From assembly GCF_016595155.1 (NCBI RefSeq), contig NZ_JAENGP010000003.1, positions 124,001 through 188,000 of the forward strand: a stretch of 64,000 nucleotides of DNA. The letters are read 5' to 3'. Below the pieces are notes generated by a model that ran no database searches, was not told where the DNA came from, and saw nothing but the letters and a program-made list of their open reading frames with translations. This DNA comes from Advenella mandrilli (GTDB lineage: Bacteria > Pseudomonadota > Gammaproteobacteria > Burkholderiales > Burkholderiaceae_B). Positions 60,124 to 64,000 of the stretch are shown piece by piece. Position 1 is the stretch's first letter. Each line of letters begins with the position of its first letter. A program made the position numbers and the translations under genes.

Positions 60124-60199
<76 letters not shown>

Positions 60200-60287
60200 A
60201 CTTTCTTTGGAAAGGTTTAGCGAAGTAAGTTGTGATACAGTTTTATCGTTCACAATTAAAATGTAGTACGTTAACAGTTAAAGTCCT

Positions 60288-60363
60288 GTCCCCTTCGTCT
60301 AGAGGCCTAGGACACCACCCTTTCACGGTGGGTACAGGGGTTCGAATCCCCTAGGGGACGCCA
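60288..60363 (+). tRNA. tRNA-Glu (anticodon TTC), copy 1
   Basis: A 76-base cloverleaf beginning GTCCCCTTCGTCTAGAGG. The anticodon stem CCACC/GGTGG closes the loop CTTTCAC with anticodon TTC. The T-arm has GGTTCGAATC and the 3' end carries encoded GCCA. Identical to copy 2 at 60563. Confidence 0.97.
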
Positions 60364-60401
60364 AACTTTTTGTTTGATGTCAGACTTTAACATACCGCTG
60401 C

Positions 60402-60478
60402 GGAGCGGTAGTTCAGTTGGTTAGAATACCGGCCTGTCACGCCGGGGGTCGCGGGTTCGAGTCCCGTCCGCTCCGCCA
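60402..60478 (+). tRNA. tRNA-Asp (anticodon GTC), copy 1
   Basis: A 77-base cloverleaf beginning GGAGCGGTAGTTCAGTTGG. The anticodon loop reads CTGTCAC with anticodon GTC, and the T-arm is GGTTCGAGTC. It ends with encoded GCCA. G34 is the target of the Tgt enzyme encoded at 49692. Identical to copy 2 at 60677. Confidence 0.97.
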
Positions 60479-60486
60479 CAAGATTC

Positions 60487-60517
60487 AAAAGCCCTGACAC
60501 TTTTTCAGGGCCTTTTT
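60487..60517 (+). terminator. Terminator between the two Glu-Asp tRNA units
   Basis: A seven-base-pair stem GCCCTGA/TCAGGGC (60491-60497 with 60505-60511) flanked by A residues and followed by a T-tract (60513-60517). It separates the first tRNA unit from the duplicate. Confidence 0.85.
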
Positions 60518-60562
60518 AATGCTACACCATATGCAGCATTAAAATCAGTTAAACAAAGTCCT

Positions 60563-60638
60563 GTCCCCTTCGTCTAGAGGCCTAGGACACCACCCTTTCA
60601 CGGTGGGTACAGGGGTTCGAATCCCCTAGGGGACGCCA
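60563..60638 (+). tRNA. tRNA-Glu (anticodon TTC), copy 2
   Basis: Identical in sequence to the copy at 60288-60363, including the encoded GCCA end and the anticodon TTC. Confidence 0.97.
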
Positions 60639-60676
60639 AACTTTTTGTTTGATGCTAGACTTTAACATACCGCTGC

Positions 60677-60753
60677 GGAGCGGTAGTTCAGTTGGTTAGA
60701 ATACCGGCCTGTCACGCCGGGGGTCGCGGGTTCGAGTCCCGTCCGCTCCGCCA
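60677..60753 (+). tRNA. tRNA-Asp (anticodon GTC), copy 2
   Basis: Identical in sequence to the copy at 60402-60478, with anticodon GTC and encoded GCCA. Confidence 0.97.
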
Positions 60754-60762
60754 CAAAATTTC

Positions 60763-60800
60763 AAAAAGCCCTTAGCTTGAATAAAGTTAAGGGCTTTTTT
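60763..60800 (+). terminator. Terminator at the end of the tRNA cluster
   Basis: AAAAAGCCCTTA pairs with TAAGGGCTTTTT (60763-60774 with 60788-60799) around a loop with a small inner CTT/AAG stem, then a T-run. The following 163 bases to the next gene hold nothing else I can identify. Confidence 0.9.
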
Positions 60801-60963
60801 CATTTCTGGCAGTAACTCTTCGCTATCTCAGTAGCACGCTCAGTTCAGTGGAGACCGAATCCGCAATAAGGCATAAGCAAATTACTACTTATTGTTTTTC
60901 ATGCATAACAGCGGTCGTTATACTTGTAAGTAATATAAACCCATTTACTTAGAGTTTAAAATA

Positions 60964-61506
60964 ATGAGCCGTTTAACTATTCATACCCTGGACACGGTAC
61001 CTGCTGAAGCCAGCGAACGTCTGCAAAATGTCAAAAAAAACAATGGATTCATTCCTAACCTGATTGGCGTTCTGGCCAATGCGCCAACCGCCCTGGAAAC
61101 TTATCAGGTTGTTGGCGGCATTAATGCCCGCAACGGCTTTAGCGATGCCGAGCGTGAAGTTGTTCAAATTACGGCGGCCACCCTGAATGGCTGCGGTTTC
61201 TGTGTTGCCGGTCACACCGCGATTACCCGCAAAAAAAACCTGATGCCCGAAGAGTTGATCCAGGCTTTACGTAATACCCAGGCGCTTAGCGATCCAAAAC
61301 TGAATGCACTGGCACAATTCACCATTGCCATTATGGAAAGCAAAGGTCAGGTTTCCAACGAACAGCTTAATGATTTCCTGGCTGCCGGTTATACACAAAG
61401 CAATGCACTTGATGCCGTTCTGGGTGTTAGCCTGGCAACCTTATGCAACTATGCCAACAACCTGGCCCAAACCCCCATCAATCCCGAACTGCAGCCTTTT
61501 GCCTAA
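60964..61506 (+). CDS. Carboxymuconolactone decarboxylase/AhpD-family protein
   Basis: A 180-residue all-helical protein of the AhpD/CMD fold. It has the redox motif CGFCVAGH (Cys77, Cys80, His84), which in AhpD forms a reducible disulfide used in peroxide reduction; EREVVQIT supplies the conserved Glu of the AhpD relay, and TAITRKKN follows the motif. It is the first of a same-strand series: an acyl-CoA-dehydrogenase-like protein 35 bases later, then rubredoxin and an ABC transporter. It could be a peroxidase or thiol redox partner for the flavoprotein. No signal peptide is seen. Confidence 0.9.
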   Translation: MSRLTIHTLDTVPAEASERLQNVKKNNGFIPNLIGVLANAPTALETYQVVGGINARNGFSDAEREVVQITAATLNGCGFCVAGHTAITRKKNLMPEELIQALRNTQALSDPKLNALAQFTIAIMESKGQVSNEQLNDFLAAGYTQSNALDAVLGVSLATLCNYANNLAQTPINPELQPFA

Positions 61507-61541
61507 GCCTTTATTTATACCCGCCAGTAAGGAATACCGTT

Positions 61542-62669
61542 GTGAGTCAAACCACCCGCACCACCACCCTGATTGAGTCAGTTGCCGCCCTGGTAAAAAC
61601 TGAATTAGCCCCATTAACCAATGCCATTGACCAGGAAGGGTTATATCCCGCCGATTTCCTGCACAAACTGGGCGCGCTGGGCGGCTTTGCTTCCGCCATT
61701 CCCAAAGCGTATGGTGGTCTGGAGCTGGGCCTGGATAGTCAAATTGACATCACAAGCCTGGTGGGCCGTGAATGCGGCTCCACCGCTTTCCTTACCTGGT
61801 GCCAGTCCACCTGCGCCTGGTATTTATTGCACGCCCCCAACGAAACCGTCAGGGCGCGCTATCTGCCACAGGTGGCACAAGGCAAACTGCTGGCAGGCAC
61901 CGGCATGTCCAATACGGTCAAGCATCTTGCCGGTATTGAAAAAATTCATCTGTCCGCCGTACGTGAAGGTGACGGTTATATTGTCAGTGGTTCATTGCCC
62001 TGGGTTTCCAATATTGGCAAAGATCACCTGGCCATTGTCGCTGCATCGGTGGGCGAAGAAGGCTATATCATGTTTGCCGTACGTGGCGATACCGAGGGCC
62101 TGAGCCTGAACCCCTGCCCCGAATTTTCTGGATTGGAAGGCACCCAAACCCTTAATATGCGCTTCAGAAACGTGCGCATCCAGGCCGATGACGTACTGGC
62201 CCAGCCCGATCAATTCAAATCATTCATTGCCCGCATCAAGGCCGGTTTTGTACTGGGCCAGCTTGGCATGGGTTTTGGCATTATTGAAGGCAGCCTGAAA
62301 ACCATCCGTGAAAGCAATGTCACTACTTCACACGTGAACGTTTACCTGGATGAACAGGGTGAAGACATTGCCACCAAATTTGAAGCGTTAAGAAACCAGG
62401 TAAGCAGCTTGGCACCCCAGGCTGAAAACGGCACCGCCCTTATTCTGGATATTTTACGTGCCCGCGCCAATGGCTCTGAAGCCACCCTGGCCGCAGCGCA
62501 ATCTGCCCTGCTGCATGCCGGTGCCAAAGGCTATCTAATGCGCCACCCAGCACAGCGTCGCCTGCGTGAGGCCATTTTTGTGGCCATTGTCACCCCGGCC
62601 CTGAAGCACTTGCGTAAAGAAATTCACGATATTGAACAGGCCCAACAAGCCAAAGCAGAGGCAGCATAA
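61542..62669 (+). CDS. Acyl-CoA-dehydrogenase-fold flavoprotein lacking the usual catalytic Glu
   Basis: A 375-residue protein starting at a GTG with AAGGA ten bases upstream. The three-domain acyl-CoA dehydrogenase layout is recognisable: helical domain 1-115, beta domain 116-225 (AGTGMSNTVKHLAG, then SGSLPWVSNIGK) and C-terminal helices 226-375. By motif alignment with LREAIFVAIVTPALKHLR the catalytic Glu of medium-chain dehydrogenases (MRDAKIYQIYEGT) falls at Thr351. Such changes occur in flavin monooxygenases of this fold, such as DszC-like enzymes, so oxygenase or other chemistry is more likely than beta-oxidation. The stop overlaps the rubredoxin start (TAATG), which suggests electron transfer from rubredoxin. 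Confidence 0.85.
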   Translation: MSQTTRTTTLIESVAALVKTELAPLTNAIDQEGLYPADFLHKLGALGGFASAIPKAYGGLELGLDSQIDITSLVGRECGSTAFLTWCQSTCAWYLLHAPNETVRARYLPQVAQGKLLAGTGMSNTVKHLAGIEKIHLSAVREGDGYIVSGSLPWVSNIGKDHLAIVAASVGEEGYIMFAVRGDTEGLSLNPCPEFSGLEGTQTLNMRFRNVRIQADDVLAQPDQFKSFIARIKAGFVLGQLGMGFGIIEGSLKTIRESNVTTSHVNVYLDEQGEDIATKFEALRNQVSSLAPQAENGTALILDILRARANGSEATLAAAQSALLHAGAKGYLMRHPAQRRLREAIFVAIVTPALKHLRKEIHDIEQAQQAKAEAA

Positions 62670-62833
62670 TGAAACAATGGATGTGTGGCCCCTGCGGTCT
62701 GGTTTATGACGAAGCCCTGGGCATGCCCGAACATGGCCTTGCCCCCGGCACCAAATTCGAGGATATTCCCGATGACTGGGAGTGCCCCGATTGCGGCGTA
62801 ACCAAAGCCGACTTCTACCTTATTCCCGATTAA
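62669..62833 (+). CDS. Rubredoxin
   Basis: A 54-residue one-iron electron carrier read directly from the sequence. MKQWMCGPCGLVYDEALGMP provides the first CxxCG pair and DWECPDCGVTKADF the second, with the conserved PEHGLAPGTKFEDIPDDW between. The TAATG overlap with the flavoprotein stop implies coupled translation and points to that protein as its partner, or to a shared reductase elsewhere. The ABC ATPase gene starts 13 bases later. Confidence 0.96.
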   Translation: MKQWMCGPCGLVYDEALGMPEHGLAPGTKFEDIPDDWECPDCGVTKADFYLIPD

Positions 62834-62846
62834 GCAAGGACCCGTT

Positions 62847-63671
62847 ATGGTGAACCCGACACCGTTGGCCAGGCAGACCGTTCTGGATGCCCAACAAATC
62901 CAACTTAGTTACAGCAGACCCAAACAGTCGCCCACCGTTGTATTGCGCGACTTCTCGCTACAGCTGTCCAAGGGCGAGATTGTTGCCATCCTGGGGCCCA
63001 GCGGTGTGGGCAAGTCTTCCTTGCTGCGTGTGCTGGCCGGCCTGCAAAATGCCGACAAGGGCACCGTAAAGGTCAACAATGAACCCCTGCAAGGTCCACA
63101 TCCGCGCCTGAGCTTTGTTTTTCAGGACCCCAGCCTGCTGCCCTGGCTGAATCTGGAAGAGAACGTCCGGTTTGGCCTGGACTTCAAGCATCAGCCCCAC
63201 ATTTCCCAGGAACAAATCAATGCCCGCGTGCAAGCAGCCATTGAAGAAGTCAATCTGACTGCCGCCCGATTGCGCCACCCGTCCGAGCTGTCAGGCGGCA
63301 TGGCCCAGCGAGCGGCATTGGCACGCAGCCTGGCCCGCCATCCGGAAATCCTGTTGCTTGACGAGCCTTTCAGCGCCCTGGATGAAATCACCCGCAGTGA
63401 AATGCAGGAACTCCTGTTGCAAATCACGAAAAAACACAAATCGGCCGCCATTTTGGTGACCCACGACATTGATGAGGCCCTGATTGTGGCTGACCGCATC
63501 ATCCTGATCGGCGACCTGCCCGGCCGCCAGATTGGCCAGTGGCAAATCAACCACCCTCACCCAAGAGACACCATTTCTCCTGAACTGACCCGGATCAGGG
63601 TAGAAATTATCCAATTACTCAGGCAGGCTCGTCATAAAACTGTTGCTGTCAACGCCAGCATGGCGGCCTGA
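62847..63671 (+). CDS. ABC transporter ATP-binding protein (nitrate/sulfonate/taurine type)
   Basis: A 274-residue ATPase subunit. Walker A GPSGVGKS (50-57), the Q-loop in FVFQDPSLLPWLN, the signature LSGGMAQRAALARSLA, Walker B ILLLDEPFSALDE and the switch His in LVTHDIDEALIVADRI are all intact. The last part resembles SsuB/TauB/NrtD-type ATPases. The next gene encodes a substrate-binding protein of the matching type. The permease is presumably beyond the window. Confidence 0.95.
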   Translation: MVNPTPLARQTVLDAQQIQLSYSRPKQSPTVVLRDFSLQLSKGEIVAILGPSGVGKSSLLRVLAGLQNADKGTVKVNNEPLQGPHPRLSFVFQDPSLLPWLNLEENVRFGLDFKHQPHISQEQINARVQAAIEEVNLTAARLRHPSELSGGMAQRAALARSLARHPEILLLDEPFSALDEITRSEMQELLLQITKKHKSAAILVTHDIDEALIVADRIILIGDLPGRQIGQWQINHPHPRDTISPELTRIRVEIIQLLRQARHKTVAVNASMAA

Positions 63672-63722
63672 ACACTTTATAAAAAAACAGTTCCTCGCCA
63701 CCTACCGGCCAAGAGAAGACAT

Positions 63723-64000
63723 ATGAAAGACGCTAACAATACTACTTCGGATGCCCGCCGCCAGTTTTTGAAACTGTCAGGCCTGTTTACCGCCATGGGC
63801 GCCCTGCCCTTATTGCAAATGCATAACCTGGCCCGTGCTGCCGACCCCAATGCACCGGTAAAAATTGGTTATTTGCCCATTACCGATGCCACGCCGTTAC
63901 TGGTGGCCGATCATCTGCAATACTACCAGGAGCAGGGGCTTGAGGTAGAAAAGCCCCGCATGTTCCGCAGCTGGGCGCAACTGGTAGAGGCCTTTCTGGC
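63723..64000 (+). CDS. Tat-exported ABC substrate-binding protein, NrtA/SsuA type (3' end beyond window)
   Basis: The first 92 residues of a periplasmic binding protein. The Tat signal ARRQFLKLSGLFTAMGA with the RRxFLK motif is followed by a hydrophobic core and a likely AxA cleavage (ARA-A). The mature part begins VKIGYLPITDATPLLVADH, the typical start of CmpA/NrtA and taurine-type binding proteins, continuing to SWAQLVEAFL. Export in the folded state suggests a bound cofactor or metal, or simply that this family uses Tat. Confidence 0.9.
   Translation, partial: MKDANNTTSDARRQFLKLSGLFTAMGALPLLQMHNLARAADPNAPVKIGYLPITDATPLLVADHLQYYQEQGLEVEKPRMFRSWAQLVEAFL

Follow-up and report, generated by a model that had tools for sequence, protein, structure and literature searches.

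Organization and conservation of the gene set

What is the role of a group of genes at the right end of the analyzed stretch of Advenella mandrilli DNA, in which a small thiol protein, a flavoprotein resembling acyl-CoA dehydrogenases (ACADs), a rubredoxin, and an ATP-binding cassette (ABC) importer stand side by side? The stretch, called the window here, comprises 64,000 nucleotides (G000:C31:124001-188000), and the genes run past its end. Six genes on one strand, encoding in order a CMD-domain (AhpD-like) protein, an ACAD-fold flavoprotein, a rubredoxin, an importer ATPase, a periplasmic binding protein, and a permease, form one operon, with successive genes separated by 35 nt, an overlap, 13, 51, and 63 nt (Table 1). 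The initial annotation had described five same-strand open reading frames (ORFs) joined by short gaps or a TAATG overlap, and their positions, spacing, and overlap were confirmed. Reading on to the right of position 64000, in the downstream stretch L009 (window coordinate = L009 + 60000), completed the binding protein to 64916 and added the permease. The GTG of the flavoprotein gene lies 35 nt after the CMD stop codon and is preceded by AAGGA at 61529-61533. The window CMD protein carries the CxxC and His of its domain, and the CxxCxxxH motif is present in all 36 CMD sequences of the compared loci.

To follow the gene set through other genomes, orthologues were assigned by best BLAST match to reference proteins, with ORFs called by script and no gene caller, in a sample of 200 genomes of the order (flavoprotein threshold E ≤ 1e-60) and a sample of 398 Pseudomonadota genomes (flavoprotein threshold E ≤ 1e-45; binding protein bait E ≤ 1e-70), where L091 and L138 represent their genomes in the counts. 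The order sample contained the flavoprotein in 13/200 genomes, always with an adjoining thiol protein (13/13) and with a rubredoxin domain in 11/13; within 10.5 kb of it, 10/13 had an importer binding protein and 5/13 had cynS, the cyanase gene. The flavoprotein was present in 16 of the 398 genomes of the phylum sample, again with an adjoining thiol protein, either CMD or OsmC, in every case (16/16); 13/16 loci had an importer binding protein no more than 10.5 kb away, and 6/16 a rubredoxin domain. With the binding protein as bait, 18 places in 17/398 genomes were recovered, and the flavoprotein together with CMD or OsmC adjoins at 16 of these 18. GTDB contigs yielded sixteen named relatives, including Advenella, Pollutimonas, Polaromonas, Pusillimonas, Neopusillimonas, and Rhodanobacter, and the ATPase follows the flavoprotein in all 15 close relatives whose flavoprotein gene is complete. 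The gene set is not a chance association, because it recurs in many genera with differing flanking genes. A scattering of the genes in relatives had been named beforehand as refuting their connection; it was not found, and it is nearly certain that the thiol protein, the flavoprotein, and the importer, which stay together, constitute a conserved module.

The rubredoxin behaves differently. It lies between the flavoprotein and the ATPase in nine of the 15 close relatives and is missing in the other six (L041, L042, L043, L046, L047, and L050). The rubredoxin, initially described as dedicated and joined to an ACAD-like protein, is an accessory, absent from many loci. Other components vary as well. 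Either CMD or OsmC serves as the thiol protein, except in two loci (Synechococcus and Thermomicrobium), which have a DUF4242 protein instead. As electron carrier, the loci encode rubredoxin, a fusion of rubredoxin with a pyridine-nucleotide reductase (L054), or a 2Fe-2S ferredoxin adjoining a reductase (L105); where seen, the carrier is always of the one-electron type, and many loci show none. The importer is of the window type or CynABD-like with cynS, and in both L054 and L105 cynS occurs together with OsmC, the flavoprotein, and a binding protein of the window type. Plasmid versions of the flavoprotein and transporter occur in Agrobacterium, Roseomonas, Bartonella, Variovorax, Synechococcus, Deinococcus, and Thermomicrobium; their flavoproteins are only about 25-28% identical to that of the window, and no rubredoxin adjoins them.

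Full-text searches of the open-licence literature turned up no paper describing the CMD, flavoprotein, rubredoxin, and importer set, in line with the earlier remark that it matches no named pathway. Within the open-licence papers to which this claim of novelty is limited, the gene set thus appears to be widespread and uncharacterized.

Table 1. Features of the operon and its upstream region (window coordinates; scores in bits).
Feature	Coordinates	Strand	Evidence and remarks
CMD / AhpD-like protein, 180 aa, CxxCxxxH motif	60964..61506	+	PF02627 46.8 (cut-off 23); ahpD_dom 41.9
ACAD-fold flavoprotein, 375 aa, likely GTG start	61542..62669	+	Acyl-CoA_dh_N 66.7; Acyl-CoA_dh_M 25, below cut-off 33.3
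Rubredoxin, 54 aa, start overlapping flavoprotein stop (TAATG)	62669..62833	+	PF00301 74.7 (cut-off 23); RubredRD 71.2, below cut-off 90
ABC importer ATPase, 274 aa	62847..63671	+	PF00005 118.6; ntrCD 201.6, SaoA 194.8, TauB 192.6, each below NCBIfam cut-off
Periplasmic binding protein, 397 aa, Tat-like RRQFLK leader	63723..64916 (window holds 5' part to 64000)	+	L009:3723-4916; NMT1_2 PF13379 163.6 whole, 37.1 on fragment
Permease, 261 aa, outside window	64980-65765	+	L009:4980-5765; PF00528 76.2
Conserved upstream box ATAAGCAAATTACTACTTATTGTTT, possible activator (LysR-type) site	60873..60897	+	Just upstream of promoter-like site
Sigma-70-like promoter match TTTTCA-17-TATACT	60896..60924	+	9/12 matches; weak: 8 such sites in region vs 4.6 expected by chance

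Some loci depart from the common arrangement. In L050 (8001-15985) the set is split, with the flavoprotein and ATPase on one side and CMD, the binding protein, and the permease on the other; the intervening genes resemble miaB, phoH, and ybeY in sequence. L106 and L107 carry a window-type binding protein without permease or flavoprotein, among very long ORFs, and it is possibly part of a sensory system there. CMD, flavoprotein, and rubredoxin also occur in L024, a 2.17-Mb Neisseria gonorrhoeae sequence deposited as a plasmid, and in a close genome (L052), with no importer in the 17 kb examined. An idea involving Neisseria and Fur was dropped; its sole literature match concerned Fusobacterium.

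The flavoprotein and its electron supply

The flavoprotein family was analyzed with 66 of its sequences, alongside three ordinary ACADs from the window's genome; L091 (the same place as L039), L138 (the same as L033), and the partial L051 were left out of the tree and motif counts, and the outgroup ORFs of L003-L006 were dropped on account of wrong frames. The tree separates the family from the ordinary ACADs with a support of 100/100, to be read with a long-branch warning, and places the window clade as sister (99/99) to six loci combining OsmC, rubredoxin, and a CynABD-like importer, four of which show cynS. The AlphaFold2 model of the flavoprotein has the ACAD fold (predicted local distance difference test, pLDDT, 84.8). 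The catalytic Glu of ACADs (IYEGT region), which is kept in two of the three ordinary ACADs of the same genome, is replaced by Thr351, and T351-P352 is found in 65/66 members. The motif S123-N124-x-x-K127 is likewise present in 65/66 and Trp86 in all 66. A plain acyl-CoA dehydrogenase was rejected as the enzyme label, given that the catalytic Glu is gone despite the fold; an ACAD fold without its defining residue makes an oxygenase or another flavin reaction likelier.

Group-D flavin monooxygenases such as DszC and SfnB resemble the window's family in the ACAD fold and likewise lack the catalytic Glu. Membership in either family was rejected, with scores of 28.7 bits against a cut-off of 850 (DszC) and 37.6 against 430.9 (SfnB); DszC was not among the 50 fold matches listed for the flavoprotein, which excludes nothing. 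Monooxygenases of the DszC/SfnB type depend on a flavin reductase, whereas window-type loci encode rubredoxin or ferredoxin. A pairing of group-D enzymes with MsuE is given in the excerpt of PMC13352529.

The flavoprotein is likely a rubredoxin- or ferredoxin-fed flavin oxygenase. Alternatively, it might oxidize its substrate and pass electrons outward to rubredoxin, as ordinary ACADs do to electron transfer flavoprotein, with no oxygen chemistry. We regard this as decidedly improbable: the catalytic Glu is lost in 65/66 aligned family members, and relatives encode a pyridine-nucleotide reductase with rubredoxin or ferredoxin, which suggests reduction driven by NAD(P)H. Should the pathway proposed below be right, the pairing of rubredoxin with an ACAD-fold flavoenzyme would be new, and the annotations as 'acyl-CoA dehydrogenase family protein' at these loci could be corrected.

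The importer and its binding-protein pocket

Ssu/Tau/Nrt-type importers provide the best family models for the ATPase, permease, and binding protein of the window, and differ in that the window components all score below the curated cut-offs. The binding protein is by sequence nearest to 3un6, then to NrtA and CmpC; it scores 104.8 bits against the NCBIfam model SsuA_fam (TIGR01728; cut-off 163.5), short of membership in the SsuA family, and 73.2 against SaoX (cut-off 300). Its structure model was poor (pLDDT 62.2) and was not used. The Advenella faeciporci copy (L036) shares 93% identity with it. NrtA contacts nitrate through W102, Q155, H196, G240, and K269. In the aligned pocket the window protein has W, S, H, A, and C, so that the Trp and His are kept and the position of Lys269 is occupied by Cys; a nitrate importer was rejected because the pocket residues differ from those of NrtA. 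The pattern W-S-H-A-C-C is found in all 45 window-type rows. The 22 CynA-like rows mostly read W-Q-H-P-C-C, with Cys-Cys in 22/22, Gln or Asn in 20/22, and Pro in 17/22. These 45 and 22 rows include the L091/L039 duplicate as well as L106 and L107 (without flavoprotein), and L025 and L129 each contribute two of them.

The operon resembles known systems in which an importer and a flavoenzyme scavenge sulfur, yet it falls below the membership cut-off of each such family. A role in scavenging sulfur from another small organosulfur compound (a sulfonate, sulfone, or thio-acid), with the flavoprotein acting as a group-D monooxygenase in the manner of DszC or SfnB and with the link to cyanase belonging to a derived branch, is an unlikely but substantial alternative to the thiocyanate pathway proposed below. 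It agrees with the SsuA/TauA/NrtA class of the importer and with the neighbors of two loci: L096 adjoins ssuA (502 bits) and an NtaA/DmoA monooxygenase (588 bits), both above cut-off, and L092 an SsuA-like protein (114.6 bits, below cut-off) and an NtaA/DmoA monooxygenase (531.8 bits). These sulfonate-type neighbors come from two loci inspected by hand and do not represent a count. We take 3un6, the nearest PDB relative of the window binding protein, to be the binding protein of the TauABC-like operon of Staphylococcus aureus. This ABC operon belongs to the CymR cysteine regulon according to the excerpt of PMC5480029. The context of the cyanobacterial plasmid pANL, described below, also fits an organosulfur substrate. 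Against it, the DszC and SfnB scores are far below their cut-offs, and the cynS and rhodanese genes near the flavoprotein are left unexplained.

A second alternative is the handling of organometals as in the Sao system (SaoA, SaoP, SaoX), which reportedly concerns selenoprotein and organometal genes in a paper by Haft. Its transporter models are among the nearest named ones for the window importer, with SaoA at 194.8, SaoP at 160.1, and SaoX at 73.2 bits among the best NCBIfam matches, and the invariant Cys-Cys of the binding protein would suit such a substrate. An OsmC-family partner linked to CynA (L026, 5290-5877) scores 53.5 bits against the model of an OsmC-related (seleno)protein (cut-off 95), which also points in this direction. 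However, the Sao scores are far below the curated cut-offs (360, 295, and 300), the cynS link stays unexplained, and no organomercurial lyase-like gene was noticed, though no search was aimed at one; we consider this reading highly improbable.

Cyanase and rhodanese neighbors and the proposed thiocyanate pathway

In the phylum sample, cynS was found in 69/398 genomes. It was present in 12 of the 16 flavoprotein genomes compared with 57/382 others (Fisher p = 3.2e-7, with shared ancestry not corrected) and in 8 of the 17 binding-protein genomes compared with 61/381 others (p = 0.0036). Within 10.5 kb of the flavoprotein, cynS occurs in 9/16 loci, covering five genera and four families, with five of the nine from one genus, and a rhodanese-type sulfurtransferase (PF00581) occurs in 9/16. 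Among common metabolites, thiocyanate is the one that gives rise to cyanate as well as sulfane sulfur. A sulfurtransferase and a cyanase beside one oxidoreductase therefore point to thiocyanate, with cyanide as a rival. The cyanobacterial version, on pANL of Synechococcus elongatus PCC 7942, a strain that can use thiocyanate, comprises the flavoprotein SYNPCC7942_RS13440 and the binding protein RS13450. It lies in a stretch with cysK (cysteine synthase), and a title cited in PMC8049743 reports sulfur regulation of genes of this plasmid; together with the coupling to an importer, the cysK stretch favors an anion that supplies sulfur. The initial annotation had suggested an organosulfur, organonitrogen, or related small anion as the substrate; the cyanase and rhodanese of the relatives narrow this, by inference, to thiocyanate.

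In the pathway that we propose, the ABC importer would take up a small anion, most likely thiocyanate (SCN-). Rubredoxin would reduce the ACAD-fold flavoprotein one electron at a time, a task that in relatives would fall to the rubredoxin-reductase fusion or to the 2Fe-2S ferredoxin with its reductase. The reduced flavoprotein would then activate oxygen and split SCN- into cyanate and sulfane sulfur, and the CxxC protein, CMD here and OsmC elsewhere, would reduce or accept the reactive sulfur product. A search for cyanase in the window's host found none, so the benefit there would lie in sulfur rather than in nitrogen. The analysis establishes how the operon is laid out and conserved, the lost dehydrogenase base, and the cyanase and rhodanese association of relatives; we infer which substrate is used, that oxygen takes part, which way the electrons flow, and what the CxxC protein does, as well as a substrate shared between the window operon and its cyanase-linked relatives. 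That the operon imports thiocyanate and splits it oxidatively to cyanate and sulfane sulfur is our preferred reading, held tentatively and at a little less than an even chance. Besides the cyanase and rhodanese genes and the pANL context, it draws on the tight coupling to the importer, the cynS-bearing loci in the sister group of the window clade, the lost catalytic Glu, the one-electron carriers, and the Cys-Cys pair that the window binding protein shares with cynS-linked CynA-like proteins.

Several observations weigh against it. Seven of the 16 phylum-sample loci have no cynS within 10.5 kb, no locus in the window's close clade shows cynS, and the window's operon has no rhodanese. A profile search of the window's genome with PF02560 (cyanase) gave no match, and among 14 control genomes only Synechococcus matched. 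Rubredoxin is missing beside many members of the flavoprotein family, and the flavoproteins of the pANL type share only about 25-28% identity with that of the window. Pattern, matrix, and cysI tests (see below) did not show a sulfur-starvation promoter common to the operon and other genes, an idea that was set aside. Finally, PMC5328954 cautions that cyanase beside a gene offers poor evidence for a cyanate pathway, and such neighborhoods have misled before.

The neighboring cyanase and rhodanese would equally accompany a cyanide substrate. The flavoprotein would in that case be a cyanide monooxygenase (CN- + O2 -> cyanate), with rhodanese and cyanase serving in companion detoxification and the importer carrying cyanate or a cyanide-derived anion. 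The oxidation of cyanide to cyanate is chemically simple, and the Roseomonas plasmid locus L061 has an annotated gene for a cyanide-insensitive oxidase, cioA, about 4 kb away, a single case. We judge this alternative improbable, as hydrogen cyanide crosses membranes, which makes the tight coupling to an importer (16/18) hard to explain, and the pANL context and the sulfonate-type neighbors point to sulfur.

With regard to known systems, one close arrangement is the cyanate assimilation cluster CynFABDS of Pseudomonas pseudoalcaligenes CECT5344. Relatives of the window's flavoprotein have cynS and a sigma-54 regulator as neighbors along with a CynABD-like importer, the same arrangement as in the excerpt of PMC6627978, which makes no mention of a flavoprotein, OsmC, or rubredoxin. 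The window operon differs from it in having no cynS and in its binding protein (W-S-H-A-C-C against mostly W-Q-H-P-C-C). The thiocyanate dehydrogenase and hydrolase routes have in common with the window operon its proposed substrate. According to the excerpt of PMC5328954, the cyanate route of thiocyanate use yields cyanate, and cyanase stands directly before the thiocyanate hydrolase genes in Thiobacillus thioparus; a flavoprotein or rubredoxin is not mentioned there. The two enzymes are a copper enzyme and a hydrolase, respectively. A third, oxygen-dependent route of thiocyanate use, by an importer-coupled, rubredoxin- or ferredoxin-driven ACAD-fold flavoenzyme that would split SCN- into cyanate and sulfane sulfur across Pseudomonadota, Cyanobacteriota, Deinococcota, and Thermomicrobiota, is a possibility that we put forward with some doubt.

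Should the thiocyanate pathway hold, these loci would offer the first gene pair for testing bacterial thiocyanate uptake as a sulfur source and would supply the genes for a missing step, the uptake and opening of thiocyanate by ordinary aerobic bacteria for its sulfur and, with cyanase, for its nitrogen. Even with another anion, the genes represent a conserved uptake-and-redox module, as yet undescribed, present in 16/398 (flavoprotein) or 17/398 (binding protein) sampled Pseudomonadota genomes.

Upstream region and neighboring genes

Directly upstream of the operon, at 60124-60753, lie a tRNA-Ala gene and then a tandemly duplicated pair of tRNA-Glu and tRNA-Asp genes, the two copies spaced by about 275 bp, followed by a stem-loop and a T run at 60763-60799. 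Given the upstream tRNA genes and the stem-loop with its T run, the operon has a transcription start of its own, which probably lies at the promoter-like site of Table 1. Of 18 upstream regions examined, those of L036-L051 included, 12 had an AT-rich box similar to that of the window, placed by eye and script about 70-90 nt ahead of the start of CMD; all 12 belong to the window clade or near kin.

The box was not tied to any known regulon in pattern and matrix tests. In the window's genome, a first pattern found no site, the operon's own included, and a second found only the operon's own, with two matches in its backward control; in the 200 genomes of the order there was one match, within an unrelated ORF. 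A matrix was also built from ten relatives; the top score that it gave ahead of cysI was 10.1 bits, a value reached by 65 of 1000 shuffles, and one of 91 upstream regions, that of the operon itself, scored above the cysI site. The cysI gene was located in six of 12 relative genomes. The near-identical Advenella one among these six scored 11.8 bits; the other five reached no more than 6.3 bits, at positions other than directly ahead of cysI, and a contig end truncates one of the five.

Among the neighboring genes, an AraC-type regulator with a Cupin_6 domain adjoins CMD in nine loci (L063 and L095-L102), and the L096 copy scores 90.9 bits against the RclR model (cut-off 400). An annotated DUF1852 protein and methionine synthase lie near the Acetobacter locus (L055, 1-1999), and near the Rhodanobacter locus (L044, 4663-6981) there is a putative MetE-like ORF. 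In the window's genome, the permease gene is followed by a convergent gene that, judged by its sequence, is probably adenosine-deaminase-like.

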